64,000 nt of DNA from Bacteroidaceae bacterium. Its GTDB lineage: Bacteria > Bacteroidota > Bacteroidia > Bacteroidales > Bacteroidaceae. Positions 18,990-58,876 of the stretch are shown piece after piece. The position numbers and the translations under genes are program-made. The DNA lies in NCBI GenBank assembly GCA_024398515.1, contig JAKSIZ010000002.1:62001-126000 (forward strand). The letters run 5' to 3'. The notes beneath the pieces are model-generated. The model was not told where the DNA came from, searched no databases, and saw nothing but the letters and a program-made list of their open reading frames with translations. Numbering within the stretch: position 1 is the stretch's first letter; every line of letters begins with the position of its first letter.

Positions 18990-19069
18990 ACATTCTTAGA
19001 ATGTTCACGTGAACATTCTAAGAATGTTACGCGGAACATTCTAAGAATGTGCAAACGGCTTAAACGTTC
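18990..19069 (+). repeat. triple-palindrome element TP1
   Basis: Three 15-bp palindromes of the type ACATTCT(A/T)AGAATGT lie at 18990-19004, 19013-19027 and 19036-19050 (period 23 bp), separated by 8-bp spacers TCACGTGA and TACGCGGA. After 9 bp comes TTAAACGTTC (19060-19069). The first two palindromes plus spacer form one perfect 38-bp dyad. GTTGGGGGGC lies just upstream, as in TP3 and TP5. It sits between the beta-helix gene terminator and the convergent exbD-like gene. Confidence 0.9.
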
Positions 19070-19163
19070 ATGTCACTGTTCCGACGGTTTCAACCGTCGC
19101 CAAAAGAGCGAAAGAGAACTCCACACTAAACGGGTAAACGACGAATTTACGAAACAACTAACT

Positions 19164-19700
19164 TTATTTTTCGCTTACTCGTTGAGGGATTGCTTCGTCG
19201 ATGACTTGGAGTTGGCGGTCGTTAAGGGCATCGTACGGTTTGCCGAAACGCTTGCGCGATGCTTCGTTGCGCAGTTGCTTGTAGGCATTGACTATCTGGT
19301 TCTCGACTGCAAAATAGGATTCATACTTTGAATTATCGTCGGCATTTATTAGTATGATATGCTTTGCAGGACTCTCTGACAATGTCTCGTCGTGCTTTGG
19401 ATTGACGATAAACTCTTTCATCATTGCACACAACTTATCAGCCTCCACCTCTTCGTCGTTGTGGATAATCTTGCCGTCGGCAGTTAAGTCGATTTCAAAG
19501 ACATTGCGTCGGTCAACAACCTTTTCTATGTGTTCAAGGTGCTTAGGTGCGGGCTTCGACAGTTGGTAGGGCAGTCCGAAGTTGCGGTCCATTGAGGTGG
19601 TCACAAGAAACAGAATGAGCAGCATGAACGAAATATCGGCTGTTGAGGTCGTATTAAGTTCAGGTATCTCGTGACTTGAAAAGTTCTTCTTGAACAACAT
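19164..19700 (-). CDS. ExbD/TolR-family proton-channel accessory protein
   Basis: The 178-residue protein has the ExbD layout: a short cytoplasmic N-terminus, then one membrane segment with the family's key Asp (LNTTSTADISFMLLILFLVTT, Asp near residue 22), then a periplasmic domain. It is the last gene of a four-gene minus-strand operon with an ExbB-type protein, so together they should form an inner-membrane proton-driven motor that energises TonB or a Tol-like envelope system. The periplasmic region is slightly longer than in classical ExbD. No TonB gene is adjacent. Confidence 0.85.
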   Translation of the reverse strand: MLFKKNFSSHEIPELNTTSTADISFMLLILFLVTTSMDRNFGLPYQLSKPAPKHLEHIEKVVDRRNVFEIDLTADGKIIHNDEEVEADKLCAMMKEFIVNPKHDETLSESPAKHIILINADDNSKYESYFAVENQIVNAYKQLRNEASRKRFGKPYDALNDRQLQVIDEAIPQRVSEK

Positions 19701-19710
19701 GAGGGGAGAT

Positions 19711-20187
19711 TTACTTACGTTTTAATGCAGAAAACAGTATGAGAGCAATGGCACCGACGATGAGAATAAATGCCGTGACGATAAACATGGTGCTTGTGCG
19801 GAGCCAAAGTGTATCGTTGTATGGCGTGCCGTTGATGGTGATGGCATCGGTGTTGCTAAGTAGAAATGTGGCGGCAAGAGTGACTGCTACGGGTATTGCA
19901 ACCATCCATGCGATGCGACGAATGCGTATGTTGTTGACAGTTGAAGTGTGGTTTTGCTTCTTGAAACCTATTACGGCACTTGTTATTGCAATAGACAACG
20001 TGGCAACAACCATGACAATCATGAGCCAGATAATGGCTGGAGTGAGCATCGGTTCATTAAATGTCGGGTTGAATGAGCACGGCATGTCGTAGCCTAAAGT
20101 GTAGAACGCCAGGAATACAACCGCTATCAGCAGGATAAGACTTATCTTGATTTTCTTTATCATATCGGATATGTTTAACCCTTTCAA
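19711..20187 (-). CDS. small integral membrane protein of the ExbB/ExbD operon
   Basis: The 158-residue protein has about four hydrophobic segments (near residues 14-30, 48-72, 91-108, 131-153) and a basic KKQNHTSTVNNIRIRR loop. I recognise no enzymatic motif. It lies between the ExbB-like gene (11 nt gap) and the ExbD-like gene (10 nt gap), so it is probably an accessory subunit or assembly partner of the motor. An alternative start at the second Met (20163) would shorten the N-terminus. Confidence 0.6.
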   Translation of the reverse strand: MKGLNISDMIKKIKISLILLIAVVFLAFYTLGYDMPCSFNPTFNEPMLTPAIIWLMIVMVVATLSIAITSAVIGFKKQNHTSTVNNIRIRRIAWMVAIPVAVTLAATFLLSNTDAITINGTPYNDTLWLRTSTMFIVTAFILIVGAIALILFSALKRK

Positions 20188-20198
20188 TGCTTAATCAC

Positions 20199-20870
20199 CT
20201 AACTTTTTTTCTTGTATTCCGCAATCATATCCATAAGAGTGATGTAACTTTCCTCCATCTGTGAGGTGATGTTTTCAATCTTGTTGAGGATGTAATTGTA
20301 GAAACATTGCAGCACGAGAGCCACGATGATACCAAAGATTGTGGTTATCAGAGCCACTTTCATGCCCGATGCCACGATGGTAGGGCTGATGTCGCCGGCA
20401 CTTTCAATGTTGTCGAAGGCAATCACCATGCCTATTACCGTGCCGAGGAAACCCAAGGATGGAGCCATGGCAATGAAGAGTTTTATCCACGAACAACCCT
20501 TTTCGAGTGCCGATGTCTGCACGGTTCCATAGTTTGTTACCGACCGTTGTATCTCGTCCATAGTGTCGTTTATGTGCATCAGAGCTTGGTAGCAGATGCT
20601 TGCAACGGGTCCGCGAGTGTTGCGACAAAGGTCTTTTGCACCATCGATGTCGTTTGTCTGGAGTTTGTTTTCCACTTCTTTCATCAGTTTTCGGGCGTTG
20701 ATTTCGGAAAGTGTAAGGAAGATAATCCTCTCGATACAGAAAGCCAAACCCAATACTAATGCTAAGCTTACGAGCGACATGAAGCCCGCATTGCCCTCGA
20801 TAAACTTAACCTTGAAGGCATTTATAAATAGTAAATAAGGTATCATAAATAATAAATTATCAAATTTCAA
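20199..20870 (-). CDS. MotA/TolQ/ExbB-family proton channel protein
   Basis: The 223-residue protein has an N-terminal membrane segment (about 24-45), a cytoplasmic helical region, and two C-terminal membrane segments (about 125-150 and 165-192). Typical ExbB/TolQ sequences are present: LFIAMAPSLGFLGTVIGMVIAF and ISPTIVASGMKVALITTIFGIIVAL, including the Gly-Thr-Val-x-Gly motif and the small-residue helix of the channel. With the ExbD-like protein it forms the proton channel. The gene is preceded by a secreted-protein gene (13 nt gap) in the same operon. Confidence 0.9.
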   Translation of the reverse strand: MKFDNLLFMIPYLLFINAFKVKFIEGNAGFMSLVSLALVLGLAFCIERIIFLTLSEINARKLMKEVENKLQTNDIDGAKDLCRNTRGPVASICYQALMHINDTMDEIQRSVTNYGTVQTSALEKGCSWIKLFIAMAPSLGFLGTVIGMVIAFDNIESAGDISPTIVASGMKVALITTIFGIIVALVLQCFYNYILNKIENITSQMEESYITLMDMIAEYKKKS

Positions 20871-20883
20871 TTATCAGTTTTAA

Positions 20884-21522
20884 TCATTCTGCCAGCACCC
20901 GCAGCACTTTTTTAAGGCATTCTGCTTTTGTCCAATCGAAGCCATACTGCTTGATACAGGCATCATAGAGGCTTCTTTTCTTCTTAGGCACTACGAGTTT
21001 TACGCTGCGCTCATGGCATCGAACCTCTTTTCCGCCGATGACGAAATAGTAGGTGACGACAAGCGGAAACTTCAATGACTCTGCGTCAGGGTCAAGTCGT
21101 GTGACAGCAATGTTGTCGCCAAGAGAGATGTTTGTTATGTCCGACTCGTTCAGAAGCGTGCCTTTGAATGCTTCGACATCGATATTCTTGACGCAAAGAA
21201 GTTGGCAGTTGGAGCATGTGTCAATAACTTCTGCCAGTTGGTTCTTGAGGTTTACGAACTGACGTTTGTTGATGAATACCGTCTTAACGATGTTCATGTT
21301 CGCCCTCAAGTCCTTGCCTAACTGTTTATATACGAGACTTGCATCCTTTAGAAAGATGTTTGCCTCACGTTGTTGGTGTATGCTTCCGTCGGTTAGTTCG
21401 ATGACTGCCGGCGCATATTCCTTAAAGAGAGTAACCCTTTCGGTCTCTCCGGCAGGAATCTGCGACATGATATGCAGAGCCACAAACATCATGGCAACGA
21501 GTGAGAACAGACGCTTTTTCAT
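20884..21522 (-). CDS. exported protein of unknown function heading the ExbB/ExbD operon
   Basis: The frame is open back to 21564, but a TACTTTTG promoter element lies at 21552-21545, so translation should start at ATG 21522, giving 212 residues with a signal peptide (MKKRLFSLVAMMFVALHIMSQ). The mature protein has CSNCQLLC (two closely spaced Cys pairs) and a basic C-terminal part (KLVVPKKKRSLYDACI). No family is recognised. Its position as first gene of the motor operon suggests a periplasmic or outer-membrane partner of the motor. Confidence 0.65.
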   Translation of the reverse strand: MKKRLFSLVAMMFVALHIMSQIPAGETERVTLFKEYAPAVIELTDGSIHQQREANIFLKDASLVYKQLGKDLRANMNIVKTVFINKRQFVNLKNQLAEVIDTCSNCQLLCVKNIDVEAFKGTLLNESDITNISLGDNIAVTRLDPDAESLKFPLVVTYYFVIGGKEVRCHERSVKLVVPKKKRSLYDACIKQYGFDWTKAECLKKVLRVLAE

Positions 21523-21544
21523 TCTTGTAATCTTATATTGAGTG

Positions 21545-21552
21545 CAAAAGTA
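21545..21552 (-). promoter_or_regulatory. -7 element of the ExbB/ExbD operon
   Basis: TACTTTTG on the minus strand matches TAnnTTTG; only a weak ATTG is present at the -33 position. It places the transcription start near 21537, downstream of the longest possible ORF start, and decides the start of the first gene. Confidence 0.5.
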
Positions 21553-21595
21553 ATAAAAAAACATAGAATTACAATTTCTTTTTATGTTTTATTAA

Positions 21596-21632
21596 ATAAA
21601 AAATGAGCGGTTCAATATCGAACCGCCCATTT
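21596..21632 (-). terminator. terminator of the fimbrillin-like gene
   Basis: GCGGTTC (21607-21613) pairs with GAACCGC (21620-21626). On the minus strand the stem is followed by a CATTTTTTATTT run. It lies about 35 nt after the stop of the minus-strand lipoprotein gene. Confidence 0.7.
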
Positions 21633-21666
21633 GGTTATTGTCTTTCCTTATTATATATAAGGTGAA

Positions 21667-23940
21667 TTACATGTGTGTTGCTGCTGGCTTTGCGATTGCG
21701 TATGCCTGCTGTGCACTTGCTGCTGCAGATGCGATACCAGTTGTGTTCTGGTACTGTGGAGCAAAGTTGAATGTGTAGTCGTATCTCAAGATAGCCTTAG
21801 TAGGGTCTGTAACAGGCTCGTTGGTTGTCTTGTCAAGATAGTGACCTTGTGCATCAAGATTGTAAACTGGAGTCATTTCTGCCAAAGTAACGATTACCTT
21901 AACAGGAACAGCAGTGTAAACTACATTAGTTGATGTTGTCTTCCAGAAGAATGCCTTGTATGTTGGGAATGTATGTGAGCCAGTAAGTTCCTTGTATGCA
22001 GTTTGCTGCGCTAAAGTAAGAGCTGTAGTATCCATGACAGCATAATTGTCATAAGCTACCGTAGTAGTGCCAACTGCTGAAGCTGTGATGTCCTCGAACA
22101 GTGACTCACCCTTAGTCCACTTGAAGTTTTTGCCAGTAGCGTCAACTGTTACAACGCCTGTTGTTGGGTCAACAATTTCGAAACCTGGAGTTACAACCTC
22201 AGCGATGTCTGCTGCATTAACCATGCCGCGTGACTTGTAGAGACCGCCTGACATTGGCCAGAATGAAGGGTTGCTGATAGTCCATTCGTCTTCAGGATTA
22301 ATCTTGCCAGTTTCACCTGTTACGTAGTCAACAACTTCGATACCATCGAATACGATTGGCTTCAATGCTGGATCGTCTGGTACACGTGGGTCATCTGGAT
22401 CTACGTAAGGGTCGTTAGGGTCTTTACCTGGGTCTGGAGGAGTTGGGCCTGGGTTAGGATTTGGATTGATTGAATCGGTAGGATTCGTGCTTGAAGAAGC
22501 TGGGTCAACCTTGTCAGGGTCTGTTGTACCGTTAGTGTTAGAAGTGATCTTGAATACGTATGTATAGCAAGTACCTGCTTCCCACTTACAGAACATTGGA
22601 TCTACATATACACGAGCATCATAGATTGTAGTTTCCTTTGAGCCATCTTCAGGGATGAGCTTGTAAGATACGTGGAGTGTGAAACCAGTTTCAGCACCTA
22701 CACCACCAGTGATGTTAGTTGCACCTTGGTAACGTGGCAAAGCGTAGAGAACAGTTGCAAGCTTTGTAGGATTGTCCTTCAATTCGCTGATGCAATTAAC
22801 TGTCTTAGACTTTGTAGCAGACTTGATAAGTGCAGTTGCATCGTTAGCAGGAGCATAGATGAAGTTGTCAACAACTGGAAGTGCACCGTTAGCTGGAGCA
22901 GCAACTTTGATAGAATCAACATCCTTGATGCCCTTAACTGTTACGTCAGCCTGATCGTAATAAGCTGGCTTGTCGCCGTTAGCTGGCTGTGGATAGTAGT
23001 CACCAACGAATGCGCCAGATACGCCGTCATGCAACCAGTTTGTCTGAGCCGGCTTAGCTGGAGTAAGTTGGATACCCTGATATGTTTCGCCCCATGCGTT
23101 TGCTTCTGGGAGAAGGTCGATAAGTTCAACCTTATAACCCTTGATAGCCTCGTAGAAAGCAATTTTAATCTGTGAGTTTACGTGATTGAAAAGGATTGAA
23201 ACATCGTTGCCGTATGAGCTCTTGTTTACGTTAGTGTAAGCGTAGAGAGCTTCGTTAGCGTTGATGAGTTCTGTGTTTGTGTCGTATGCACCTTCGCCAG
23301 TATAAGGAGCAGTTGCTGTAGCAATCTGCTGAACTGGGTCAGTGTAGAATGTTGAAAGGTTCTGGAACTTGAGAGTTTCAGCGCCCTTAGTTGCAGACTC
23401 TGTATATTCTACAGCCTTATCGTTAGCTGTCTTAACTGCTACCTGATTATAATAAGGTGCGTAAGCAGAGAAATAAGTTGCTGCAGTTGACTCGTCCCAA
23501 TACTTCAAAGACTGTGCAACGTCAGGAATAACCGGAGCCTTGTAGTTTGAAGCATTGTCAAGTCCTTCATAGAACCATGAAGAAACGCCATCGCCTGGAA
23601 CTGTAGTAGAAGCTTCAGCACCTGCCATCCAAGTAGAAGCACCTGCTGCGAGGTCCTTATAAGGATTTGTAAGTGATCCGTAAGCAACAAGGTAGTTTTC
23701 CATAATCTGGTCGCCATTAACGTCAGCTTCTGCGCCAGAGTAACCAAATACACCAAACTCATAGTGTCCCTTTGTCTGAAGAGCATCGGCACGTGTAGAG
23801 TTTGCAGTTGTCATGTTGAACCCAATGTTCACCTTGCTCACGTCGTACTTTTTCTGAGAAAAGTCATCTACGAGTGAGTCATTTGTACAGCTCGCCATTA
23901 TCATGCAGGCGATTGCTGCGAGAGAAAAAATCTTTTTCAT
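21667..23940 (-). CDS. fimbrillin-family surface lipoprotein
   Basis: The 757-residue protein has a lipoprotein signal (MKKIFSLAAIACMIMASC, Cys18). A fimbrillin-like N-terminal domain follows: VNIGFNMTTANSTRADAL is the usual start, with 'TRA' near the protease-processed region of major fimbrial subunits, then FGVFGYSGAEADVNGDQIM and the long beta-rich domain. Around residues 480-525 there is a linker very rich in Pro, Asp and Asn (PNPNPGPTPPDPGKDPND), followed by a second beta domain (about 540-757). Fimbrillin-family proteins form or decorate short fimbriae on the surface of Bacteroidales. The neighbours show no anchor or tip genes, so this may be a stand-alone adhesin-like lipoprotein. Confidence 0.7.
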   Translation of the reverse strand: MKKIFSLAAIACMIMASCTNDSLVDDFSQKKYDVSKVNIGFNMTTANSTRADALQTKGHYEFGVFGYSGAEADVNGDQIMENYLVAYGSLTNPYKDLAAGASTWMAGAEASTTVPGDGVSSWFYEGLDNASNYKAPVIPDVAQSLKYWDESTAATYFSAYAPYYNQVAVKTANDKAVEYTESATKGAETLKFQNLSTFYTDPVQQIATATAPYTGEGAYDTNTELINANEALYAYTNVNKSSYGNDVSILFNHVNSQIKIAFYEAIKGYKVELIDLLPEANAWGETYQGIQLTPAKPAQTNWLHDGVSGAFVGDYYPQPANGDKPAYYDQADVTVKGIKDVDSIKVAAPANGALPVVDNFIYAPANDATALIKSATKSKTVNCISELKDNPTKLATVLYALPRYQGATNITGGVGAETGFTLHVSYKLIPEDGSKETTIYDARVYVDPMFCKWEAGTCYTYVFKITSNTNGTTDPDKVDPASSSTNPTDSINPNPNPGPTPPDPGKDPNDPYVDPDDPRVPDDPALKPIVFDGIEVVDYVTGETGKINPEDEWTISNPSFWPMSGGLYKSRGMVNAADIAEVVTPGFEIVDPTTGVVTVDATGKNFKWTKGESLFEDITASAVGTTTVAYDNYAVMDTTALTLAQQTAYKELTGSHTFPTYKAFFWKTTSTNVVYTAVPVKVIVTLAEMTPVYNLDAQGHYLDKTTNEPVTDPTKAILRYDYTFNFAPQYQNTTGIASAAASAQQAYAIAKPAATHM

Positions 23941-24023
23941 TTTTTGTTAATATAAAGTTGTTTGTAGTTGTTATATCCGCAACCAAGTTATCCTTATGGA
24001 AAAACTATTCTCCAAAATCGCGG

Positions 24024-24031
24024 CAAAGGTA
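24024..24031 (-). promoter_or_regulatory. -7 element of the fimbrillin-like gene
   Basis: TACCTTTG on the minus strand, about 84 nt before the ATG. No clear TTTG is found at -33. Confidence 0.5.
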
Positions 24032-24211
24032 CAACATATATATGAATATATATAAGTCGTTAACATTTTTTTGCATAAAAATCGCAAAATGTTGCTTTTT
24101 GGCGATAAAATGAACATGTTGACTTGTTTAATATCAAGAGTAAGAGCATTTTTGTTATCAAATAACTAAACATACTTCGATGACTTGAAGTCTTAAAATT
24201 CGTATAAAAAT

Positions 24212-24242
24212 TTTGTCATATCTTATATTTATACTAATTTTG
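24212..24242 (+). promoter_or_regulatory. promoter of the outer-membrane protein/lptC unit
   Basis: TTTG at 24212-24215, 19 nt, TAATTTTG at 24235-24242; the ATG is at 24267, giving a very short leader. Confidence 0.75.
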
Positions 24243-24266
24243 CAAACTGATTTTTAAGACTTAAAG

Positions 24267-25577
24267 ATGATTATAAAAAAACACTCTCTTGCTTTGACTT
24301 TGGCGTTGGCATTGACGCTGATGCTTGAAAACGTGGACACATACGCCCAAAGTGGAACCAATTCACCATATAGTATGTACGGTATGGGCGTTCTTTCCGA
24401 CCGTTCTACTGGGTTCAACCGTGGTATGTCGGGCGTTTCGCAAGGCTTTAATGACGGCAACCAAGTCAACCCTATGAACCCAGCATCGTATGCTAACGTA
24501 GATTCGTTGACCTTTATTTTTGATGCAGGTCTTTCATTGCTCAACACAAATTTAAAGGAAGGCGACAACAAACGCAACGCAAAGACTGCAAACTTCGAGT
24601 ATGCTGTTGCAGCTTTCCGCGTATGGAAAAACGTAGGATGTAGTTTCGGAGTCCTTCCATACACCAATGTCGGTTACAATTTCTATCGCACAAACAAGGA
24701 AACTGGTGCTGTTGAGGACACTTATACCAATACATACACAGGTAGCGGCGGTATTCATGAAGCATATTTAGGCTTTGCTTGGAAACCTGTAAAGTTCTTT
24801 GCGCTTGGTTTCAATGCGGGTTATCTCTGGGGCGATTATTCGAAAACGATAACGAGTGTACACTCTTTGTCAAGTGCCACCAGCCTTTTCCGTATATACG
24901 ATGGAACGGTCAGGTCGTACAAAATTGACCTTGGCGTGCAAGGAATCATCCCAATCAACAAGGACAATACTCTCACTTTGGGAGCGTCGTACGTCATTGG
25001 ACACAGCATGAACAACACTGTTGAATTGCTCGACATAAAGGCTGACACCACCGCATACCGTGTTGGAGATGCCTTTTTCGTGCCTACAACAATCAGCGGA
25101 GGTTTCGCCTGGAACCACAAAAACAAACTAAAGTTTGGTGCAGACTTCACTTTGTATAAGTTCGCAGACCAAGATTTCCCAACGGTATTCGACAATGGAA
25201 AGACATTCTCATACGTTAAGGCGGGCAATCAACTCCTTGACCGGACGCGAATAGCAGTGGGTGGCGAATGGATTCCCGACGAATATTCCAACAAATTCTT
25301 CGAGCGTATCCACTATAAAGTAGGCGGATACTACGCTACGCCGTACATTAAGGTGAGCGACAGTCAGGGCAAACTTGTTGACGGACCAAAGGAAATAGGG
25401 CTCAGTTTTGGTGTTGGTGTGCCTATCATCAACACATGGAACAACCGTTCCCTTCTCAATCTCTCGGCTCAATGGGTGCGTAGTTCGGCTTCAAACCTCA
25501 TTACCGAGAACTATTGGCGCATCAATGTTGGCATAACTTTCAACGAGCGTTGGTTCGCAAAATGGAAGTTTGAGTAA
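24267..25577 (+). CDS. outer-membrane beta-barrel protein
   Basis: The 436-residue protein has a signal peptide (to about TYAQS) and an all-beta, aromatic-rich sequence with alternating hydrophobic residues, ending WFAKWKFE. The N-terminal SPYSMYGMGVLSDRSTGFNRGMSGVSQGF, with its Asn/Gly/Ser-rich turns, resembles Bacteroidetes barrels of the FadL/PorV-like type. Homologues next to lptC are, as I recall, a usual arrangement in Bacteroidales. The gene is followed by lptC after 57 nt. Its cargo is unknown; a role in envelope biogenesis is inferred from position only. Confidence 0.7.
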   Translation: MIIKKHSLALTLALALTLMLENVDTYAQSGTNSPYSMYGMGVLSDRSTGFNRGMSGVSQGFNDGNQVNPMNPASYANVDSLTFIFDAGLSLLNTNLKEGDNKRNAKTANFEYAVAAFRVWKNVGCSFGVLPYTNVGYNFYRTNKETGAVEDTYTNTYTGSGGIHEAYLGFAWKPVKFFALGFNAGYLWGDYSKTITSVHSLSSATSLFRIYDGTVRSYKIDLGVQGIIPINKDNTLTLGASYVIGHSMNNTVELLDIKADTTAYRVGDAFFVPTTISGGFAWNHKNKLKFGADFTLYKFADQDFPTVFDNGKTFSYVKAGNQLLDRTRIAVGGEWIPDEYSNKFFERIHYKVGGYYATPYIKVSDSQGKLVDGPKEIGLSFGVGVPIINTWNNRSLLNLSAQWVRSSASNLITENYWRINVGITFNERWFAKWKFE

Positions 25578-25634
25578 TCTTTTTCGGGCTTACACCTTAT
25601 TTATATATATAGTCGGAATATCGGAAACGGAACC

Positions 25635-26354
25635 TTGAAACGCTTGTTTTTTTCAATCATCATTGCTGCTTTCCTCATTGGTTGCAACGAGGGGAAGGAA
25701 CATACTGCGCCTGCAATAAACGATAAAGACTCCGTTGCAACGATGATAAGTTATGGAGTCAATACGCTTATTTCCGATTCGGGAGTGATGAAATACCGCA
25801 TTGTGGCTGAATCCTGGGAGGTGAACGAGGTGACAAATCCGCCAAAATGGACGTTTATCAAAGGCATTTTCTTCCAACAGTTCGACAAAGACTTCCATAT
25901 TGCCGCCACGATAAGTGCCGATACAGCATGGTTTTACAACACTTTGCAGTTGTGGGAACTGCGTGGTAGGGTAGAGATGAGAAACGTGAACGGCACCCTT
26001 TTCAACAGCGAAGAACTCTTCTGGGACCAGAGGATGCACGAATTATACTCGCACAAATATTCCCGACTCTTCACTCCCGAGCGTCAACTTGAGGGTTCAG
26101 AGTTCCGAAGTGACGAGTATATGACCAAATATTATGTGAATAACTCCATCGGAGCGTTCCCTACAAACGACGTAATGGAGGAAGAACCTGCGCCTCCTCC
26201 TTCGCCAGCAGCAGCCAACGACTCTGCCGTAGTGGTGAACGAAGACCCTAAACCTCACCCTGCACCATTAGCCAGAAGGAAGCACGTGATAGACCAATCG
26301 TCGATAAATCGTGCAAAGGAAGACATAAATGCACGCAGACAAACAATAAACTGA
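25635..26354 (+). CDS. lptC: LPS export ABC transporter periplasmic protein LptC (lipoprotein form)
   Basis: The 239-residue protein starts with a TTG codon and a lipoprotein-type signal (MKRLFFSIIIAAFLIGC, Cys17). The body has the LptC/OstA-like beta-jellyroll pattern: ISDSGVMKYRIVAESW, IFFQQFDKDFHIAATISADTAWFYN, LWELRGRVEMRN, LFNSEELFWDQRMHELYS. It should connect the inner-membrane LptBFG complex to the periplasmic LPS bridge. The C-terminal 60 residues are Pro/Ala-rich (EEPAPPPSPAAAND) and basic, a tail not needed for the core fold. It stops 4 nt before the CNNM gene, consistent with one operon. Confidence 0.85.
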   Translation: MKRLFFSIIIAAFLIGCNEGKEHTAPAINDKDSVATMISYGVNTLISDSGVMKYRIVAESWEVNEVTNPPKWTFIKGIFFQQFDKDFHIAATISADTAWFYNTLQLWELRGRVEMRNVNGTLFNSEELFWDQRMHELYSHKYSRLFTPERQLEGSEFRSDEYMTKYYVNNSIGAFPTNDVMEEEPAPPPSPAAANDSAVVVNEDPKPHPAPLARRKHVIDQSSINRAKEDINARRQTIN

Positions 26355-27681: not shown

Positions 27682-27763
27682 CCAATTAATTTCAAACAAA
27701 CGCATGTGTTATGCGGGACGAACGCTTTCGTTTCGCATGACGACTGTATGCATCTCTCAGGTT

Positions 27764-27843
27764 GAACGCTTAAGTGGCTCAAACATTGCAGCAATGTTCG
27801 AGTCAACATTGTAGCAATGTTCGGACCAACATTGCAGCAATGT
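27764..27843 (-). repeat. triple-palindrome element TP2
   Basis: Palindromes ACATTGC(A)GCAATGT lie at 27783-27797, 27806-27820 (one arm changed: GTAGC) and 27829-27843, period 23 bp. The 8-bp spacers are TCGAGTCA and TCGGACCA. GAACGCTTAA (27764-27773) lies 9 bp to the left. On the right a degenerate TTAACGCTC (27854-27862) lies 10 bp away, so this copy has boxes on both sides. It lies between the CNNM gene and cpsB. Confidence 0.9.
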
Positions 27844-27978
27844 TTTTCCGACCTTAACGCTCAACCCTTGAAGTGCAACCAAACGATACCCGCAACGCAA
27901 ACGCTCGACAAAAAAGAAAAATTACGACGCAAGTGCATTTTTATGGCAAAAAATGTTCCGTGAATAAATTTTATTTAT

Positions 27979-35736: not shown

Positions 35737-35843
35737 ATGCCTATTTATTCCTCGGATAAACATATAAAAACAGTGGGGGTGATGCTTTGAATTTTATGCA
35801 TCGTTATATATGCCTCAGAACATCCTCTGGTGGGGGGCGAAAA

Positions 35844-35920
35844 AAGTTGTACAACTTTCAGTGAAAAGTTGTACAACTTTTGCGCGAAAGTTGTACAACT
35901 TTTTTCCGAGTTAAGCGTTC
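35844..35920 (+). repeat. triple-palindrome element TP3
   Basis: Three copies of the 14-bp palindrome AAGTTGTACAACTT lie at 35844-35857, 35866-35879 and 35888-35901 (period 22 bp), separated by the 8-bp spacers TCAGTGAA and TTGCGCGA. After 9 bp comes TTAAGCGTTC (35911-35920). GGTGGGGGGC lies upstream. It sits between the small lipoprotein terminator and the rmlA promoter. Confidence 0.92.
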
Positions 35921-36001
35921 GTCTCAAATCGCGATAAAAGTCGCCCTGCGAAAAACATATAAAAAAGTGGCGTAGGATTTCGCTTTGTCGAAAGAATTTC
36001 T

Positions 36002-45089: not shown

Positions 45090-45176
45090 ATTCCTGTTCT
45101 TACGTCATTCAAAGCAGCGCTTTCCGGCGGTCGTGCTTTATCGTTGCCCAACGCGAGCGTTAGGGTTTCTTGGATT

Positions 45177-45256
45177 GAACGCTTAAGTCCGCCAAACATT
45201 GCTGCAATGTTTGGTCCAACATTGGAGCAATGTTGACTCGAACATTGCAGCAATGT
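45177..45256 (-). repeat. triple-palindrome element TP4
   Basis: Palindromes lie at 45196-45210 (ACATTGCTGCAATGT), 45219-45233 (ACATTGGAGCAATGT, one arm changed) and 45242-45256 (ACATTGCAGCAATGT), period 23 bp. The spacers are TTGGTCCA and TGACTCGA. GAACGCTTAA (45177-45186) lies 9 bp to the left. The second spacer is the reverse complement of the first spacer of TP2. It lies between the TPR gene and the small gene at 45427. Confidence 0.92.
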
Positions 45257-45366
45257 TTGACGGAGTATAAAGGTCGTTCTTGGAGAGCAAAACGCACGAG
45301 TTGGGCAACGATAACGCTCAAATTGCACGAATACAAAAGAAAAGATGTGAAATTTTTCCTAAATAC

Positions 45367-51770: not shown

Positions 51771-51822
51771 GCATTTTACATTTTTTAACTAAATAAAAAG
51801 AATGCTTGTCTTTATTTTAACT

Positions 51823-53166
51823 TTAGTTTCCTAAGATTATACCTGCTGTTCCAGTGATGTCGGACACAGTAATATCGCCGTCCTTATCAACGTCAGCATT
51901 TGTTTTGTTGAATGGACTTGGGTTGTTGCCAAGAATAAATGATGCAATGGTTGTGATGTCTGAAACTGTTACTGAACCATCTTCATCCGCATCACCCTTC
52001 TTTCCTGTTGGTTCAGGATCTGTGCCAGCGCCCCAAGGCTGTGCTGGATCCATTTCAGGGCAAGGGTTTCCATAATACTCTTCTTCGCAAAGGTTTGGTT
52101 TACCTGTCCATTCAGCTTCAGGGTCATTTGCATGACCAAACCATTTCTGTCCGTTTTCATCACTGATGAATGAGATACCGCAGAGTACCAAGCGGTTCTT
52201 AACCTTTATTTGAATAGGAGTTTCCTCTGTCCAACCAATCTTTGTACCCCATTTCTTGTCGAAGCAGTTATAACCTGTAGCAGCATCCTTGGATGTTGCA
52301 TAGGTTTCTGGGTCGGTAGATGAAGGGCAAGTACCATGCTTAGCAAAATAATACTTGATGACAGCTTCGTTCATGCCATCAATATTCAAATTAAGGTATT
52401 CGCTACCGCTATGTCCTTCGCCCCAATCCATGAAATCTTCAAAATTCTTAGGGTCTTCTTGATTGGTAAGGTCGTATGTAATCTTAAACAAAGAGCTTAC
52501 CGAAACGTAGCGTGGGTCGTAGTCAATACCGAAACGATTTGTGCACTTGAAGTCGAGGAAGTTAGGATAAGTGTAGATAGCCTTTGACCAATCGTCTTCA
52601 ACTTTTACTGACTCGGTCTTAACCTTTATCTCACGATATGCTTCATTTGAAATCTGAACGGCAGTACCATCATCAGCAAGTACTGGTGAATTATAGGTAG
52701 CCTGTACTCGACCTGTTGAGATGTCCTGGTGGTTAATACCCAGTTCTTCATTCTTTGCATTTGGCAAACCAAGTACATAAAGCACCACTTTCTTTAAGTT
52801 TGTCATTCCTGCAGTGTAATCACCGCCATCAGTTTTTCCGGCAAAGTTCAGCGTACCTGTATTTAAAGTAAGGAACTTATAGTAACCCTTGTTAAGCATA
52901 AAGCCTGTTTCTGGGTCTTGATAGTCCTTAGTAAGAGCCCACTTGTAACCATAGTCAACAGTAGCAATGTCCTCGAAAGGAATGTCAAGGCTGTTGAATC
53001 CTGGCTTAAGCATAGTAGCTGTAAGACCGTCCTCCATGTCATCGTGGAATACAGTGTCGCAAGTCATGTAGATAGTTCTGATACCATCCATTTCAAGATA
53101 CTGTGCATTAGCACAGATGGCAAATGCCATCATTGAAATCAGAGTAAATAATTTCTTCATAAGCAT
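51823..53166 (-). CDS. secreted protein of unknown function with C-terminal dockerin
   Basis: The 447-residue protein has a signal peptide (KKLFTLISMMAFAICANAQ) and a central region (about 25-375) with many aromatic and acidic residues but no recognised catalytic motif. A complete two-repeat dockerin (about 388-447) follows: GDADEDGSVTVSDITTIASF and ADVDKDGDITVSDITGTAG, nearly identical to the tail of the beta-helix protein encoded at 16598. Start could be the first ATG (53166) or the third codon (53160). It has its own promoter and is separated from the SusD gene by a terminator. Confidence 0.65.
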   Translation of the reverse strand: MLMKKLFTLISMMAFAICANAQYLEMDGIRTIYMTCDTVFHDDMEDGLTATMLKPGFNSLDIPFEDIATVDYGYKWALTKDYQDPETGFMLNKGYYKFLTLNTGTLNFAGKTDGGDYTAGMTNLKKVVLYVLGLPNAKNEELGINHQDISTGRVQATYNSPVLADDGTAVQISNEAYREIKVKTESVKVEDDWSKAIYTYPNFLDFKCTNRFGIDYDPRYVSVSSLFKITYDLTNQEDPKNFEDFMDWGEGHSGSEYLNLNIDGMNEAVIKYYFAKHGTCPSSTDPETYATSKDAATGYNCFDKKWGTKIGWTEETPIQIKVKNRLVLCGISFISDENGQKWFGHANDPEAEWTGKPNLCEEEYYGNPCPEMDPAQPWGAGTDPEPTGKKGDADEDGSVTVSDITTIASFILGNNPSPFNKTNADVDKDGDITVSDITGTAGIILGN

Positions 53167-53210
53167 AAAGTTTTTATTATTTAAGATGTGTTATATTTTT
53201 AATTCGGGTG

Positions 53211-53241
53211 TAAAGGTACGAATATTTTTGGAACTGACAAA
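53211..53241 (-). promoter_or_regulatory. promoter of the dockerin-bearing gene
   Basis: On the minus strand TTTG (53241-53238), 19 nt, TACCTTTA (53218-53211), close to the consensus. Confidence 0.6.
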
Positions 53242-53250
53242 CTTTTTAAC

Positions 53251-53283
53251 AAAAAAAGAACGTGTTTGGCACGTTCTTTTTTT
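53251..53283 (-). terminator. terminator of the SusC/SusD pair
   Basis: AGAACGTG (53257-53264) pairs with CACGTTCT (53270-53277), flanked by A-runs and T-runs, so it is active on the minus strand 19 nt after the SusD stop. Confidence 0.85.
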
Positions 53284-53301
53284 AGATTTTGTAGTATTTG
53301 C

Positions 53302-55362
53302 TTACTTGAGATATTCTTCAAGACCTGATTTTGCAGTTGTACCGTAACCATTGTCGCCATATTCCTCGGTGTTGTCAATCTGCTGGAGGAAGGTTCCTGA
53401 CATAGGACGCCAATAGTTTCTGTCGAGGAACGACTTTGCTGCACGGACGTTGTATTTCTGCAAACGATCTTTCATCGTAGCAAGACCATGACGCTGCAAG
53501 AGAGCCCAACGCTGGAACTCACCGCACATCTCGCGTGCATATTCATCGAAGATATCTTCCTCTGTTGCATTCTGCAACTTCACGTCGCCAGAATATGTCG
53601 GACGCTTTGCACGTTCGCGCAGAACATTAAGATATTCGGCAGCCTTTGCTCCATTGCCAAGGTGTTGTTCTGCTTCTGCTGCGATGAGATAAATTTCTGC
53701 AAAGCGTTGAACCATTATATCTCCATTGCGAATCTGCAGATTGTTTGAATTATAAACGCCGTCATAGTTCCACAGATACTTGTTGAGTGAAGGCCAAGTC
53801 TCCCATACGTTGTTCGACTCGTTTGTCAGTGTTGTCATCTCCGATGCAGAAGCCACATAGCGTGTGTTATTCTCTGTCATGAGGTCATCGATTGCTGCTG
53901 TAACGTATATACGGCCAGACTTGTCGAACCCGTCCTTATATTCATCAGCCCAGTTTGGATAGAGATAGAGGAAGAAACGATTGTCGTCCTGTGCAATAGG
54001 ATAGTCAACAACATAAATCTTCTTTACCTTTTCTGTCTTTGAAACATCACCGCTGGTGTTGCCTTTAGGCCATACTGTTCCAATATACTGCGCACCACCG
54101 TTTGTATAAGTCTTTATCTCCAAATCAACGTATGGCAATATAGGCTTGTTCTTCATGCTGACATCAATATCATACTTTGTGCAAAGGTCGCGGCTTCTGT
54201 CCTTAACGACTTTAACCTGACTCTTGGCATAAGTGTAGTTTGCATCGCCCGAATTGACCATTGAATAGTTGAAGAAAGCTGTCTGGAATGTATTTTCCCA
54301 ACGCTTGTCCCAGCTTGGATTGAAGCAGTGGAGCAGGTAATAAGATGGTGCAAGGTGGCTCTCGTTTGTCTTGCCGTAAAGGTAACTTGTGGCATAGTCT
54401 GACGTATTGTTGAGGTCAGCCATGTTAGAAATACCCCAATAGCAATGTGCAAACAGTTTGTTGTTGCCTGGATTAGCATATCCGTATGTGTCCAAATCCT
54501 CGCAAGCATCAATGCCGGCTGCTACAAACAGAGCCTCTTTGTTGTTGCGGTTGTTGGTGTCTGCCCATGTGTCGGAAATGTCGTCATACAGTTCTGCACC
54601 GTATGAAGCCTTGTTTGCTATGAAGTCTTCAGCCTCTTCCTTTGCACGCTGCCAGAAAGAAACGCCGTTCTCTTCAAGTCCCTGACCTGCACCTTGTATA
54701 TATGCACGGCAAAGCAAACCCTTTGCTGCCTTCTTCGTGGCACGTGCACGGTTGCCTTCAAACGGCTGAACAGGAAGGTCCTGAATAGCACCTTTGAGGT
54801 CTGTCGTTATTGAAGCATAGATTTCCGATAAGGTATTTCTTTTCGGAGAAAGGTTCACATTCTCCGATGGTTCTTCTATTACGAGTGTGATAGGACCATA
54901 ATACGTGGTTAGGATGAGGTGGTAGAAAGCACGCAGATACTTTGCCTCGGCTTTTAGAATCTTTACGTTTTCTGGATTTTCTGTAATGTTGTCACAACGC
55001 TTGATTACCGTATTGACAATGCCGAGGGCACTATATGCTTGTGTGAAAGCCTTGTCCCATGCCTTCTCAGTGCTTGTGGTGAGCTCTTCGTAGTAGAAAA
55101 GTTGTTCTGCCCAACTCTTATTGTTTGAATGCCACCAGATGTCTGTACCGCATTCTGACATTGAAAGGAAGTCGAACACTGTGAACAACTGACCGTAAAT
55201 TGGCTTGTAGCACTCTGCTTGCATTCCATATACTCCTTCGTATGTAGCGAGGATTTCGTCGCCTGTCACTTCCCTTGGATTATATTCGTCAAGTGAACAT
55301 GAAGACATCAACACCATGACTGCTGTCATCACGATTGACAACCTTGAAATATACTTTTTCAT
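53302..55362 (-). CDS. SusD-like (RagB/SusD) outer-membrane lipoprotein
   Basis: The 686-residue protein has a lipoprotein signal (MKKYISRLSIVMTAVMVLMSSC, Cys22). The SusD body shows ILKAEAKYLRAFYHLILTTYYGPITL (about 130-155), RATKKAAKGLLCRAYIQG (about 205-222) and IMVQRFAEIYLIAAEAEQHLGNG (about 570-592). Its length is at the upper end for the family. It is the second gene of the minus-strand pair, 23 nt after SusC, and ends at a terminator. Confidence 0.92.
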   Translation of the reverse strand: MKKYISRLSIVMTAVMVLMSSCSLDEYNPREVTGDEILATYEGVYGMQAECYKPIYGQLFTVFDFLSMSECGTDIWWHSNNKSWAEQLFYYEELTTSTEKAWDKAFTQAYSALGIVNTVIKRCDNITENPENVKILKAEAKYLRAFYHLILTTYYGPITLVIEEPSENVNLSPKRNTLSEIYASITTDLKGAIQDLPVQPFEGNRARATKKAAKGLLCRAYIQGAGQGLEENGVSFWQRAKEEAEDFIANKASYGAELYDDISDTWADTNNRNNKEALFVAAGIDACEDLDTYGYANPGNNKLFAHCYWGISNMADLNNTSDYATSYLYGKTNESHLAPSYYLLHCFNPSWDKRWENTFQTAFFNYSMVNSGDANYTYAKSQVKVVKDRSRDLCTKYDIDVSMKNKPILPYVDLEIKTYTNGGAQYIGTVWPKGNTSGDVSKTEKVKKIYVVDYPIAQDDNRFFLYLYPNWADEYKDGFDKSGRIYVTAAIDDLMTENNTRYVASASEMTTLTNESNNVWETWPSLNKYLWNYDGVYNSNNLQIRNGDIMVQRFAEIYLIAAEAEQHLGNGAKAAEYLNVLRERAKRPTYSGDVKLQNATEEDIFDEYAREMCGEFQRWALLQRHGLATMKDRLQKYNVRAAKSFLDRNYWRPMSGTFLQQIDNTEEYGDNGYGTTAKSGLEEYLK

Positions 55363-55385
55363 AATCTTTTCCTTTCCTTATAATA

Positions 55386-58300
55386 TTAGAATGAAACGTT
55401 AACACCAAATACGAGTTGTTTAGTCAGTGGGTAGTTCATGCTACCGTTCTGCTCTGGGTCGTAGTCTTTCAGTAAGTTGCTCTTTGCAACAATGAGAGGG
55501 TTGGTAATTGTTCCATAGATGCGGAACTTTGTGATACCTGCCTTGGCAAGCCATTTCTGTGGGAATGTATAGCCGAGGCTGATGTTCTTAATCTTGAAGA
55601 ATGATCCGTTGACGTATGCCAAGCCTGAGAATTCAGTGATTTCGTTTGCTCCCTTATTGGCATTGAGACGTGGGAAGTAGCTTCCGATTTCGTCGAGGAA
55701 GTATGCTGGGAAGTTACGTGTTTCAACTGTAGGGTCATAGTTGGTAAGCATAGAATACTTAATCATCTGTCCCCAACGCATGTACATATAAATACTCAGG
55801 TCGAAGCCCTTGTATGCAAGTGTGTTCTTAAAGCCTAAGCTCCAGTCAGGAGAATTGTGTCCGAGTGGCTGCATGTCGCTGCTTGAGATGGTGTAGAGGT
55901 TCTCTTCTGCCTTTGCATCATAGCGAACGGTCTCGCCATTGGCATTAACCTTTGTGTAGTATATTGAACCATCTGTGTCAACATGACGCTCTATGCCAGG
56001 AATATCAATCTTCATGTCGCCTGGTTCGCGCTGGAAGATTGCTGCGTCGGCTGCTTCGTCTTCGCCCCAAATGCCATTAACCTTGTAGTGATAGAACTCG
56101 TTAACAGCATGTCCGATGGCATAAACCTTGTCGCCATTCACTACATTGTTCTCTGATGCGAGTCCCTTTATCTCTTCCTTATTATATGAGAAGGTGAGGG
56201 CTGACTCCCATGAGAAGTCCTTGGTTTCTATATTGCGGGTGTTGAGAGCTACTTCAATACCGCTGTTCCTTGTCTTTGCAAGGTTGATGTTTGAATAGTA
56301 TTGAGTGTTGAAACTGTATGCACCGTTGGTTACTGGCAACTTCTTTGACCAGAGCACGCCGTCGGTATTTGTGATGTAATAGTCCAATACAAGATTGATA
56401 CGGCTGTTCAAGAAGTTGGCGTCAATACCGAAGTTCCAACTCTTCGACACCTCCCATTTCAGTGCATGGTTGGCTACTGCCTGGGTGTTGAGATATGTAG
56501 GCTGAATCAATTGTCCGCCAAGAGTGAACTTGTTTGCGCTGAGTGAAGTGACCGATGTGTAAGGTTCAATGCCGCCATTACCTGTTTCTCCATACGATAC
56601 ACGAACCTTGAGGTTGTCCAACCAGTTGCGTGTGCTTGCCATAAACTTCTCGTCGGATATTCTCCAACCTGCTGAGAATGCTGGGAATGATGCCCATTTA
56701 TGTCCTTCGGCAAGTACTGAAGCTCCGTCCCAACGCATTGATGCGCTGAAGAGATATTTGCCTTTGTATGAATAATTGATACGTCCGATGTATGCCATTC
56801 CCTTTGACATTGAGTAAGAAGAAGAGATATCCTTCGTTACTGCGCTGCCAAGATTGTACCAGAGGAACGAGTTTTCGCTGATACCTGTGCCCATTGGACT
56901 ATCGCTTTCGTTGCGGTTGTGGTTCCACGATGTCACGCCTGTGAGCGTAAATTCATGGTCGTCCTTGATGTTGAAGTTGTATGTGACGATGTTTTCCCAC
57001 TTGTAGCTCAAGCCATTTGAATGCGAAATAGATGCCTTTGTGCTCGTTTCAACGTTCTCGCCTGTCTTGTAATAGTTGTAGGAACCAATGCCCTGGAAGC
57101 TGTTCGACTTCGAATAAGTTATCGAAGCATTCACTCTTGACTCCCAAGTAAGGCCCTTCAAAGGTGTCACGCGGATGTATGGATTGAAGTACATCCTGAA
57201 GTTCTGCGACTGGTTGCGATAGTTGCTCTTGTTGTTTATGAGCGGATTGATGAAGTCTGCATCGTCGTTGATTAACGTCGTGAGGTTGCCTTCGTCATCG
57301 CGGACTGAACCGTAAGGGAACTTAGGATATACGTCCTCGATGTTTGCGAAAGGCTTATTCTGGTGTACGTATGATATCTGTGTGTTCACTCCGGCAGAGA
57401 GGAATTTGTTGATCTTGTGGTCAACGCGGATGTTTGATGAATACACTTTGTACTCGTCGTCCTTGTATTGGCCGTTCTCATTGGCAAAGTTAAGCGACAT
57501 GTATGCCTTTGTCTTTTCCGTGCCACCACTCAAAGAGAGTGAATAGTTCTGTATCACACCTGTCTTCAGCAACTCGTCAGGCCAGTCGATATTCTTGCCT
57601 GCGAGGTATGCTTCGTAGTATTTTGCCTTTGCTGCTCCGAACATGTCTTCGTCGCTTACATACGTTCCGGCGTTCTGCATAGCCGTGCGTTTTGCGTTGA
57701 GGAACGTGTCGCCCATCATCATCTTAGGCGTTTTCGACCATCCGTTGATGCCGAGATATGCGTTGAAGTTGGCTACGAGTTTGCCTTCCTTTGCGCTTTT
57801 GGTGGTGATGATGATAACTCCGTTTGCTCCACTCGAACCGTAGATTGCCGTCGAAGATGCGTCCTTCAGCACTTCTACGCTCTCAATGTCGTTAGGGTTG
57901 AGCGTATTGTAGTCGCCTGGCATACCGTCGATGATGAACAATGGATTGCCATTGCCACTGATTGTGCGGTTTCCACGCAACTGGAGATTGATGCCTGAAC
58001 CTGCCTGACCTGACGTCTTGGTGATGTCGAGACCTGCAACTTTTCCTTGCAACGACTCCATTGGGTTCATCACAGGGCTTGCTACGACGTCGTCGGACTT
58101 GATTGAAGTGACTGCACCCGTGAGGTCACGCTTCTTGATTGTACCGTAACCGATTACTACAACGTCGTTGAGGCTTGTGCTCTCCTCCTGCATTGTCACG
58201 CTGATGCTTGACCTGCCGTTGATGCTGACCTCCTGGCTTTTCATGCCGACGTATGAGATTTGTAGCGGTGACTTGCCGCTTACTTTCAGGGTAAAATTGC

Positions 58301-58478
58301 CGTTCAAGTCGGTCGTCGTGCCGTTCTTTGTGCCTTTCTCAAGCACTGTAGCACCGATGACCTCCTCGCCATTTGCATCCTTTACCGTACCCTTGATAGT
58401 TGTTTGTGCCGATACGCTGATTGCCACGAAAGCAAACACCGTCATCAGCACCGTTCGAAAGATTTTAGAATTTGACAT
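55386..58478 (-). CDS. SusC-like TonB-linked outer-membrane transporter
   Basis: The 1030-residue protein has a signal peptide (to about SVSAQ), a carboxypeptidase-regulatory-like domain (about 27-112; GTVKDANGEEVIGATVLEKG), the canonical DVVVIGYGTIKKRDLTGAV segment, a plug (about 120-230) with FIIDGMPG and DASSTAIYGSSGANGVIIITT, and a barrel ending in VNVSF. With the following SusD it forms a nutrient importer. A textbook promoter is 27 nt upstream of the ATG. Substrate cannot be read from the sequence. Confidence 0.94.
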   Translation of the reverse strand: MSNSKIFRTVLMTVFAFVAISVSAQTTIKGTVKDANGEEVIGATVLEKGTKNGTTTDLNGNFTLKVSGKSPLQISYVGMKSQEVSINGRSSISVTMQEESTSLNDVVVIGYGTIKKRDLTGAVTSIKSDDVVASPVMNPMESLQGKVAGLDITKTSGQAGSGINLQLRGNRTISGNGNPLFIIDGMPGDYNTLNPNDIESVEVLKDASSTAIYGSSGANGVIIITTKSAKEGKLVANFNAYLGINGWSKTPKMMMGDTFLNAKRTAMQNAGTYVSDEDMFGAAKAKYYEAYLAGKNIDWPDELLKTGVIQNYSLSLSGGTEKTKAYMSLNFANENGQYKDDEYKVYSSNIRVDHKINKFLSAGVNTQISYVHQNKPFANIEDVYPKFPYGSVRDDEGNLTTLINDDADFINPLINNKSNYRNQSQNFRMYFNPYIRVTPLKGLTWESRVNASITYSKSNSFQGIGSYNYYKTGENVETSTKASISHSNGLSYKWENIVTYNFNIKDDHEFTLTGVTSWNHNRNESDSPMGTGISENSFLWYNLGSAVTKDISSSYSMSKGMAYIGRINYSYKGKYLFSASMRWDGASVLAEGHKWASFPAFSAGWRISDEKFMASTRNWLDNLKVRVSYGETGNGGIEPYTSVTSLSANKFTLGGQLIQPTYLNTQAVANHALKWEVSKSWNFGIDANFLNSRINLVLDYYITNTDGVLWSKKLPVTNGAYSFNTQYYSNINLAKTRNSGIEVALNTRNIETKDFSWESALTFSYNKEEIKGLASENNVVNGDKVYAIGHAVNEFYHYKVNGIWGEDEAADAAIFQREPGDMKIDIPGIERHVDTDGSIYYTKVNANGETVRYDAKAEENLYTISSSDMQPLGHNSPDWSLGFKNTLAYKGFDLSIYMYMRWGQMIKYSMLTNYDPTVETRNFPAYFLDEIGSYFPRLNANKGANEITEFSGLAYVNGSFFKIKNISLGYTFPQKWLAKAGITKFRIYGTITNPLIVAKSNLLKDYDPEQNGSMNYPLTKQLVFGVNVSF

Positions 58479-58504
58479 AGTAAATTAAGTTTAATTTATG
58501 CGTG

Positions 58505-58536
58505 CAAAATTACGACAATAATATAACATATACAAA
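58505..58536 (-). promoter_or_regulatory. promoter of the minus-strand SusC/SusD pair
   Basis: On the minus strand TTTG (58536-58533), 20 nt, TAATTTTG (58512-58505): full consensus, about 27 nt before the ATG. Confidence 0.8.
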
Positions 58537-58799
58537 TTTTTCATCGTTTTTTTCGCACCACGGGCGATAAGCTTTAATAAGTCCGACTGGCGTGGCGCTG
58601 AAAACATGGAAAGTCGAGGAATTTTTTCCCTTATATATAAAAAGGTGTATTTCTTGGGAATTTGCCAAATTGTTTTTGTCATTTGGAGAGCAAAACTTAT
58701 AAAAAATCGTCCGAATCCGTATTGTTTTGCGCAAGTGAACGGTTCTTTTTTGAACGGCGTTCGATACCCCTCTACAATACGTTCTGTTGGGGGCGAAAA

Positions 58800-58876
58800 A
58801 AGTTGTACAACTTTCAACTGAATGTTGTACAACTTTCGCGCGAAAGTTGTACAACTTTTTTCCGAGTTAAGCGTTC
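58800..58876 (+). repeat. triple-palindrome element TP5
   Basis: Copies of AAGTTGTACAACTT lie at 58800-58813, 58822-58835 (first arm changed to ATGTTG) and 58844-58857, period 22 bp. The spacers are TCAACTGA and TCGCGCGA. TTAAGCGTTC follows at 58867-58876 after 9 bp. GTTGGGGGC lies just upstream. It is the same type as TP3 and sits in the divergent region between the two SusC genes. Confidence 0.92.

Follow-up and report, generated by a model that had tools for sequence, protein, structure and literature searches.

Regularly spaced arrays of phased palindromes in a Bacteroidaceae genome

The stretch of DNA analyzed here (the window) comprises 64,000 nucleotides from a Bacteroidaceae bacterium (GenBank assembly GCA_024398515.1, contig JAKSIZ010000002.1; C12:62001-126000 in our numbering) and carries five intergenic elements, TP1 to TP5, each built from three near-identical palindromes (Table 1). 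The assembly has 2,652,605 bases in 90 contigs and is 87.8% complete. An earlier sequence-only reading of the window had proposed that the five form one family with a constant layout. Direct inspection located all five in place and with the proposed geometry, and a blind scan for palindrome triplets of constant period (score of at least 18/21) returned exactly these elements, whereas ten shuffled versions of the window gave one match in total at that score. The elements belong to a large family whose members are regularly spaced along the genome and exclude one another over about 4 kb. This genome-wide regular spacing, which does not appear in the sequence-only reading, is the main new result.

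Table 1. Coordinates of the five palindrome-array elements in the window.
Element	Type	Extent	Strand	Palindromes	Period (bp)	Arms and box
TP1	C	18924..19116	.	18989-19051	23	arms of about 65 bp; box TTAAACGTTC at 19060-19069
TP2	B	27717..27909	.	27782-27844	23	left box at 27764-27773, reverse strand
TP3	A	35778..35967	.	35843-35902	22	box at 35911-35920
TP4	B	45130..45322	.	45195-45257	23	left box at 45177-45186
TP5	A	58734..58923	.	58799-58858	22	box at 58867-58876

Each core follows the plan palindrome-6-palindrome-6-palindrome, with a period of 22 bp in type A and 23 bp in types B, C and D. The palindromes, originally read as 14 or 15 bp, are 16 bp long in type A and 17 bp long in type B and in the middle copy of type C. 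The fourth type, D, has the palindrome AAAACTG(CTA/TAG)CAGTTTT and is new here, having emerged from a blind scan of 784,723 bases of the genome. The half-sites AAAGTTG, AACATTG, AACATTC and AAAACTG all match AAMRYTS, and thus the four types appear related. Each type has its own spacers, most often CGCGCG/CAACTG in A, CGAGTC/CGGACC in B, CACGTG/ACGCCG in C and CGATCG/CAAGTC in D. The claim that most spacers are dyad-symmetric was overstated, since symmetry is perfect in only two of the ten in the window. The CACGTG spacer is present in all nine scanned type C elements. Together with its flanks it reads TGTTCACGTGAACA (window positions 19002-19015), which resembles the parS consensus.

An arm of about 65 bp lies on either side of the core. 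The pooled arm consensus reads outward as ...CCGAGTTAAACGTTCGTCCT..., repeating A.CG.TCG.......AAA, and conservation fades about 65 bp out without a sharp end. Within the arms, the match rate at a lag of 22 is 0.392, compared with 0.213-0.287 for all other lags between 8 and 33. Beyond the arms, the rate at a lag of 22 is 0.295 versus 0.262-0.290 at other lags. The arms consist of a weaker motif that is repeated every 22 bp in phase with the core. Some arms can form hairpins. One candidate hairpin, at window positions 58767-58793 (e.g. CCCCTCTACAATACGTTCTGTTGGGGG), takes the place of the usual CG-rich arm, as also occurs in arms of other A and C elements.

A conserved box had also been reported beside the palindromes. 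The sequence TTAARCGTTC is indeed enriched, occurring 124 times in the assembly versus 19 times for its reversed control, but it is not universal. The form TTAA[AG]CG[CT]TC flanks 45 of the 76 elements in the scanned stretch on one or both sides (both in six), and others carry a variant box, for example TATAAAGGTC, or a GGGGG arm. The three-palindrome plan likewise holds for all 76 scanned elements but is not constant, as some elements have only two palindromes. At least one of these is in this genome (C1:108.5 kb), and such elements fall outside the scan, which required three.

The middle palindrome is marked in types A, B and D, and the two outer ones are near perfect. The center of type B differs from CAG/CTG in 22 of 28 middle copies versus 7 of 56 outer copies (p = 3e-9). 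Half-site changes occur in 9 of 19 middle versus 2 of 38 outer copies of type A (p = 0.0004), and in 10 of 20 versus 6 of 40 copies of type D (p = 0.006). The middle copy of TP5 has one mismatch.

Searches of the whole assembly for palindrome pairs gave 107 matches for type A (at most three mismatches), 144 for type B (at most two), 51 for type C and 151 for type D (at most three each), with no matches in the controls. At two pairs per element, this corresponds to about 227 elements. The 784,723-base stretch holds 28 of type B, 20 of type D, 19 of type A and 9 of type C, a set that includes lower-score hits of known type with a period of 22 or 23 and from which 5 of 80 blind-scan hits were dropped as AT-rich chance matches. 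Thus, the expectation that the genome would hold many copies with new palindromes at the same spacing is borne out. Identity within types is 0.85-0.95 for cores, 0.41-0.49 for arms and 0.27-0.28 for the flanks farther out, which agrees with the proposal that copies stay alike within an element while geometry is conserved. Among 775 same-type pairs, none has both arms at least 80% identical (the best reaches 0.65), and thus no recent copy-and-paste is seen. The cores are presumably kept alike by selection or conversion. The type B palindrome was absent from 99 relatives, and the box was at background level in eight. Type A was absent from the GTDB r220 genome_contigs, a collection from which near relatives of this genome may be missing.

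The 67 gaps between elements in the scanned stretch have a mean of 10,171 bp, a coefficient of variation (CV) of 0.405 and a minimum of 4119 bp, with none of them below 4 kb. Placement in random intergenic regions (5000 runs) gave a CV of 0.917 (lowest 0.633) and 21.9 gaps shorter than 4 kb (lowest 12). When placement was confined to intergenic regions of at least 200 bp, the values were 0.815 (lowest 0.508) and 15.4 (lowest 6). Inclusion of the missed two-copy element yields 68 gaps with a CV of 0.392 and leaves the minimum unchanged. The minimum is 4119 bp between elements of different types (n = 47) and 5020 bp within types (n = 20), and the order of types along the genome is random (p = 0.35). 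An exclusion zone of about 4 kb therefore operates regardless of palindrome type.

The same zone is evident from the occupancy of long intergenic regions located at least 4 kb from contig ends. Grouped by distance to the nearest other element, 0 of 14 such regions are occupied at less than 2 kb and 0 of 20 at 2-4 kb, followed by 12 of 26 at 4-6 kb, 21 of 24 at 6-8 kb, 19 of 26 at 8-12 kb and 7 of 9 beyond 12 kb. In sum, 0 of 34 regions within 4 kb of another element are occupied versus 47 of 59 beyond 6 kb. Because an element adds to the length of the region that holds it, the later ratios are raised, but not the zeros, and the first of the two null models is free of this bias. Gene calls in the spacing analysis were mechanical (open reading frames of at least 300 nucleotides).

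The genes adjoining 71 elements are co-directional in 42 cases, divergent in 16 and convergent in 13, compared with 74, 36 and 21 for all intergenic regions of at least 200 bp. This count omits two of the 76 elements that overlapped a mechanical open reading frame of at least 150 amino acids and three that lacked a neighbor on one side. The gene contexts are like those of long intergenic regions generally, and thus do not link the elements to termination or promoters. Within the window, TP4 precedes a gene that encodes threonyl-tRNA synthetase domains, and TP5 is flanked by two divergent genes with TonB-receptor plug domains. The longest element-free gap spans 28 kb (C12:52988-80997, including window positions 1-18900), with a GC content of 41% versus 45% overall. 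It encodes a TonB-receptor plug protein, a GH8 glycosidase carrying CBM_4_9 and a protein that contains a dockerin-type domain, and is possibly acquired DNA.

By its thrS gene, this genome belongs to a large genus. Among 200 sampled genomes, the sister species G234 is the closest, with a thrS gene 87% identical to that of this genome (next best 76%). Using 48 elements of types B, C and D from this genome, we built a covariance model and ran it against 398 genomes of the same genus, sampled from a larger group, with nine candidates scored per genome. Strong matches were found only in G000 and G234, and weak ones in G193, G150 and G136. The G234 elements have the same layout with the palindrome AAAGTTG(ATA etc.)CAACTTT and the box GAGTTAAACGGAC, and a further version carries AAGTTTTGCAAAACTT (e.g. 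C94:26007). A second G234 family (L120-L149) mostly has four palindromes, ACACCTNAGGTGT, at 23, 24 and 23 bp, with recurring spacers of which the central one is often AGGGGTGGT, and with sharp inverted ends AGCCCTTC and GAAGGGCT. Both G234 families share one spacing, with 11 gaps that have a mean of 9.0 kb, a CV of 0.27 and a minimum of 5989 bp. Many of these contigs were chosen for holding an array, which may bias the mean and hardly affects the minimum, and two AT-rich two-copy hits (C325:12737 and C94:37315) were left out.

Some positions correspond between the two species. A type B element of this genome and a G234 four-palindrome array share one intergenic region (C3:17096). Among 44 intergenic regions that are syntenic with G234 on both sides, only this one is occupied, with arrays in both species, and none has an array in only one. 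One flank predicts a G234 array, from another family, 61 bp from the place of TP5, and a G234 element is predicted, likewise from one flank, 47 bp from the type A element at C3:37759. A match of L190 to C8:21126 (96 bp) was not counted, because the hits on which it rests are weak and fall in several places. In the case of L127 (G234:C94:4452), a G234 array, the flanks map near two elements of this genome, C45:12533 (type A) and C23:89656 (type C). This pattern suggests that a rearrangement took place whose break points held elements. In all, 2 of 19 element borders are syntenic with G234, versus 67 of 95 for intergenic regions shorter than 200 bp (paralogue hits retained). We make no claim that element borders are rearrangement hot spots, since long intergenic regions that lack an element are just as non-syntenic (0 of 14 versus 2 of 19).

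Arrays of other sequence with a period of 22 occur in further species, and these, together with the new palindromes in G234, bear out for relatives what the sequence-only reading had anticipated. Within the genus, we examined pieces of nine further genomes and 11 single loci. Of the 58 intergenic tandem repeats there that have at least 2.3 copies, 33 have a period of 22, six have a period of 21 and none has a period of 23. The 33 arrays are distributed among G222 (9), G124 (8), G032 (4), G045, G157 and G024 (3 each), G016 (2) and G055 (1). In 500 kb of G124, Tandem Repeats Finder (TRF) assigned a period of 22 to 54 of the 73 repeats with a period of at least 12, and these belong to several unrelated families. 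After merging, 45 of the period-22 arrays are intergenic, and seven family members missed by TRF were added by pattern to give 52. Their mean gap is 9.6 kb, and five gaps are shorter than 4 kb compared with 16.6 or 14.3 expected under the two null models. None of 3000 simulations gave as few short gaps with either null (CV, p = 0.002 and 0.007). With TRF arrays alone, short gaps are still scarce (p = 0.0017 and 0.010).

The unrelated G124 families include GTTTTGCA..AAAAGCG, TTATTTACACGTAAAGAAATAT, AAATATGACGTCATATTT and ACGAAAGTATAT..CCCC (pieces L106, L166-L169 and L225-L244), and one G124 array of period 22 has 14 copies, 108 kb into the joined stretch. A G124-type array is also present at positions 102-152 of a viral contig (L327, IMGVR_UViG_2874429018_000001), near the contig end, and is probably the host flank of a provirus. 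We also surveyed 80 named loci (1.41 Mb), the best-matching 80 of at least 586, which are mostly from Prevotella or Prevotellaceae, many of them from the rumen, and include Xylanibacter ruminicola and Hoylesella loescheii. In these loci, 22 is the commonest period of intergenic repeats (19 of 71), followed by 14 (15), 21 (12) and 20 (4), with no repeat of period 23. The same test on 100 kb of Escherichia coli gave no intergenic array.

A search of the open-licence PubMed Central literature returned no description of regularly spaced phased palindrome arrays, and the available portions of PMC5771137 and PMC8040213 contain nothing on such arrays. The closest published repeat is PINSR of Prevotella intermedia, a 188-bp non-coding intergenic sequence with 177-184 copies per genome that is lineage-specific within Prevotella, with about three quarters of positions common to two strains. 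It is reported to lack terminal inverted repeats, and some role in rearrangement has been proposed (PMC4755523). Its length is near that of the arm-core-arm unit described here (about 190 bp), although the available text of PMC4755523, on which this comparison by description rests, includes no palindrome array, 22-bp phase or regular spacing. PINSR may be a member of the same kind, which in that case was already known as an unexplained repeat.

Repetitive extragenic palindromic (REP) sequences and bacterial interspersed mosaic elements (BIMEs) are also short intergenic palindromes of high copy number, but the elements described here have a period fixed at 22 or 23 bp and lack close pairs. According to the available text of PMC3733652, REP sequences have a GTAG or CGTC tag at one hairpin end, GTAG families are accompanied by RAYT genes, and clusters are frequent; gyrase has been associated with BIME-2 (PMC6379681, as available). 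Among our 76 elements, GTAG or its complement never occurs within 6 bp of a core end or in the spacers, although it lies inside the palindrome centers of 32. CGTC or its complement is found beside a core end in one element and in the spacers of three, and one or the other lies 15-24 bases out in 27 of 152 arms, too distant to fit the definition of a hairpin tag. In the 87.8% complete genome, the search for RAYT genes turned up nothing intact, only a single partial Y1_Tnp match containing an internal stop. Arrays are present and Y1_Tnp matches absent in G032 and G222, whereas G234 has four such matches. GTAG REP/RAYT elements thus differ from ours in end tag and intact RAYT, which disfavors a RAYT as the mover, and BIME clustering is absent, as none of the 67 gaps is below 4 kb.

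Miniature inverted-repeat transposable elements (MITEs) do not match either, given that no same-type pair is alike in both arms and that the flanks in this genome have no sharp end. The second G234 family, unlike the elements of this genome, does have sharp inverted ends. BrickBuilt of Porphyromonas gingivalis resembles our elements in being intergenic, in its 23-bp units and predicted stem-loops, and in its occurrence in the Bacteroidales. It comprises 1 to 22.8 tandem 23-bp units, has 19 copies per genome and carries IS5-like terminal inverted repeats (GAGACC...), and the same paper cites 22- and 23-nucleotide tandem repeats in strain W83 (PMC4596501). The string 'palindrom' is nowhere in the available main text of PMC4596501. 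We rejected BrickBuilt and other Porphyromonas MITEs, to the extent that this text describes them, since the scanned elements have three palindromes and no GAGACC-like end in their flank profile.

Of the functions suggested by the sequence-only reading (a binding array for a dimeric protein, a hairpin substrate for a transposase or recombinase, or an RNA), the binding array fits best. The transposase substrate is disfavored in its RAYT version, other transposase families not having been searched for. We propose, with a probability of about 0.47, that the arrays are bound by dimeric proteins that organize the chromosome. Our starting point is the observed phase, dyads, family and spacing of the arrays, whereas the protein and its function are inferred. 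A period of 22 or 23 bp is about two helical turns, and thus the three strong dyad sites lie on one face of the helix. Each element would be a candidate docking array on double-stranded DNA, where a putative dimeric protein might occupy the dyads cooperatively and join its neighbors along one face. The arrays could then serve as regularly placed nucleoid anchors for loops, supercoil domains or segregation. Selection would keep about one array per domain and remove close pairs. The dyads on one face, the phased weaker sites, the marked middle in three types, the even placement and the type-blind exclusion together suggest that the array is bound by protein and acts at the scale of the chromosome.

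The main rival is that the elements are non-autonomous transposable elements with 22-bp transposase sites at their ends, and that target immunity gives the exclusion zone. We consider this unlikely, although it accommodates dispersed, species-specific families with repeated 22-bp sites, an exclusion range of only a few kb, and the G234 four-palindrome element with its sharp inverted ends. MuA and TnsB bind sites of about 22 bp, but those sites are not known to be dyads. Moreover, the best same-type pair reaches only 0.65 in both arms despite cores that are 85-95% identical, the flank profile in this genome lacks a sharp end, and immunity would have to act across four palindrome types and, in G234, across two families. 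Transcription boundary elements at operon borders, acting as terminators in both directions or as arrays of RNA hairpins, seem less probable again. The palindromes and some arms can form hairpins, and the elements do sit at the borders of conserved gene blocks, but the 16 elements between divergent genes are where no terminator is needed, and hairpins require no exact 22-bp phasing. Nor does this explanation account for the fact that none of the 34 long intergenic regions lying within 4 kb of another element is occupied, and there is no Rfam match in the window at the gathering threshold.

The elements might instead be tags for self-identity or processing, comparable to Chi or DNA-uptake sequences, that are needed at least once per given length of DNA. 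Such a role would suit the species-specific sequence and broad dispersal of the elements, as well as the finding that the exact patterns of types A, B and D are unmatched in IMG/VR viral contigs. However, known tags are short single words rather than phased arrays with arms, several families per genome would each need a reader, and a minimum density does not entail the exclusion of close pairs. One viral contig also bears a G124-type array near its end, and overall we view tags as very improbable. We give marginally less credence still to passive spacing, in which recombination between repeats removes close pairs. Repeats can recombine, and the L127 flanks match two places that each lie near a different element, but exclusion is equally strong between types and between the G234 families, and no same-type pair has both arms more than 65% identical.

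Several observations weigh against arrays bound by a chromosome-organizing protein. Type C has no marked middle, with changes numbering 7, 3 and 7 across its three copies (the middle being 3), all at the outermost base. The G234 positions are only partly shared with those of this genome. Of 27 distinct G234 arrays tried, 15 could be mapped; in these second-family arrays, three lie within 150 bp of an element of this genome, seven at 0.4-2.4 kb and five at 3.7-5.6 kb. The association of sister arrays with block edges cannot be separated from the effect of long intergenic regions (6 of 11 versus 3 of 6), and we rejected it as proof because p = 0.009 against other edges becomes p = 1.0 against long intergenic regions (sister places matched by more than one gene of this genome were dropped as paralogues). 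Elsewhere in the genus, the G044 pieces and the 11 single loci (204,751 bases) have no period-22 array, and the examined pieces of G016 and G024 have only two and three. In G124, the gap CV of 0.80 from TRF arrays alone does not reach significance (p = 0.10 and 0.27), and gaps of 2-4 kb occur between families. Finally, a period-22 array is present in only 17 of the 80 named loci, whose 1.41 Mb contain 35 arrays of period 20-22. This is about one per 40 kb, and thus the spacing near 10 kb is established in three species and not genus-wide.

If the arrays are indeed docking sites for such proteins, the recognized palindrome might drift together with its protein, or another family might replace it. 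Function would then reside in phase and spacing more than in letters, which would leave the palindrome free to drift and give different sequences with similar spacing across species. More tentatively, some Prevotella chromosomes may be split into intervals of about 10 kb by anchors that are defined by 22-bp phase and mutual spacing rather than sequence, such that unrelated families would be interchangeable during speciation. We know of no other sequence element that occurs at regular intervals of about 10 kb with a hard exclusion zone. If true, the arrays would be the bacterial equivalent of centromere-like or boundary DNA that evolves rapidly, and sequence turnover at fixed phase and spacing would represent a bacterial case of fast-evolving structural DNA. 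Chromosome partitioning is largely open outside well-studied model bacteria, and arrays that act as anchors would offer a sequence handle for finding the proteins involved and for testing domain models in a major gut genus. The findings hint at an undescribed mode of bacterial chromosome organization.

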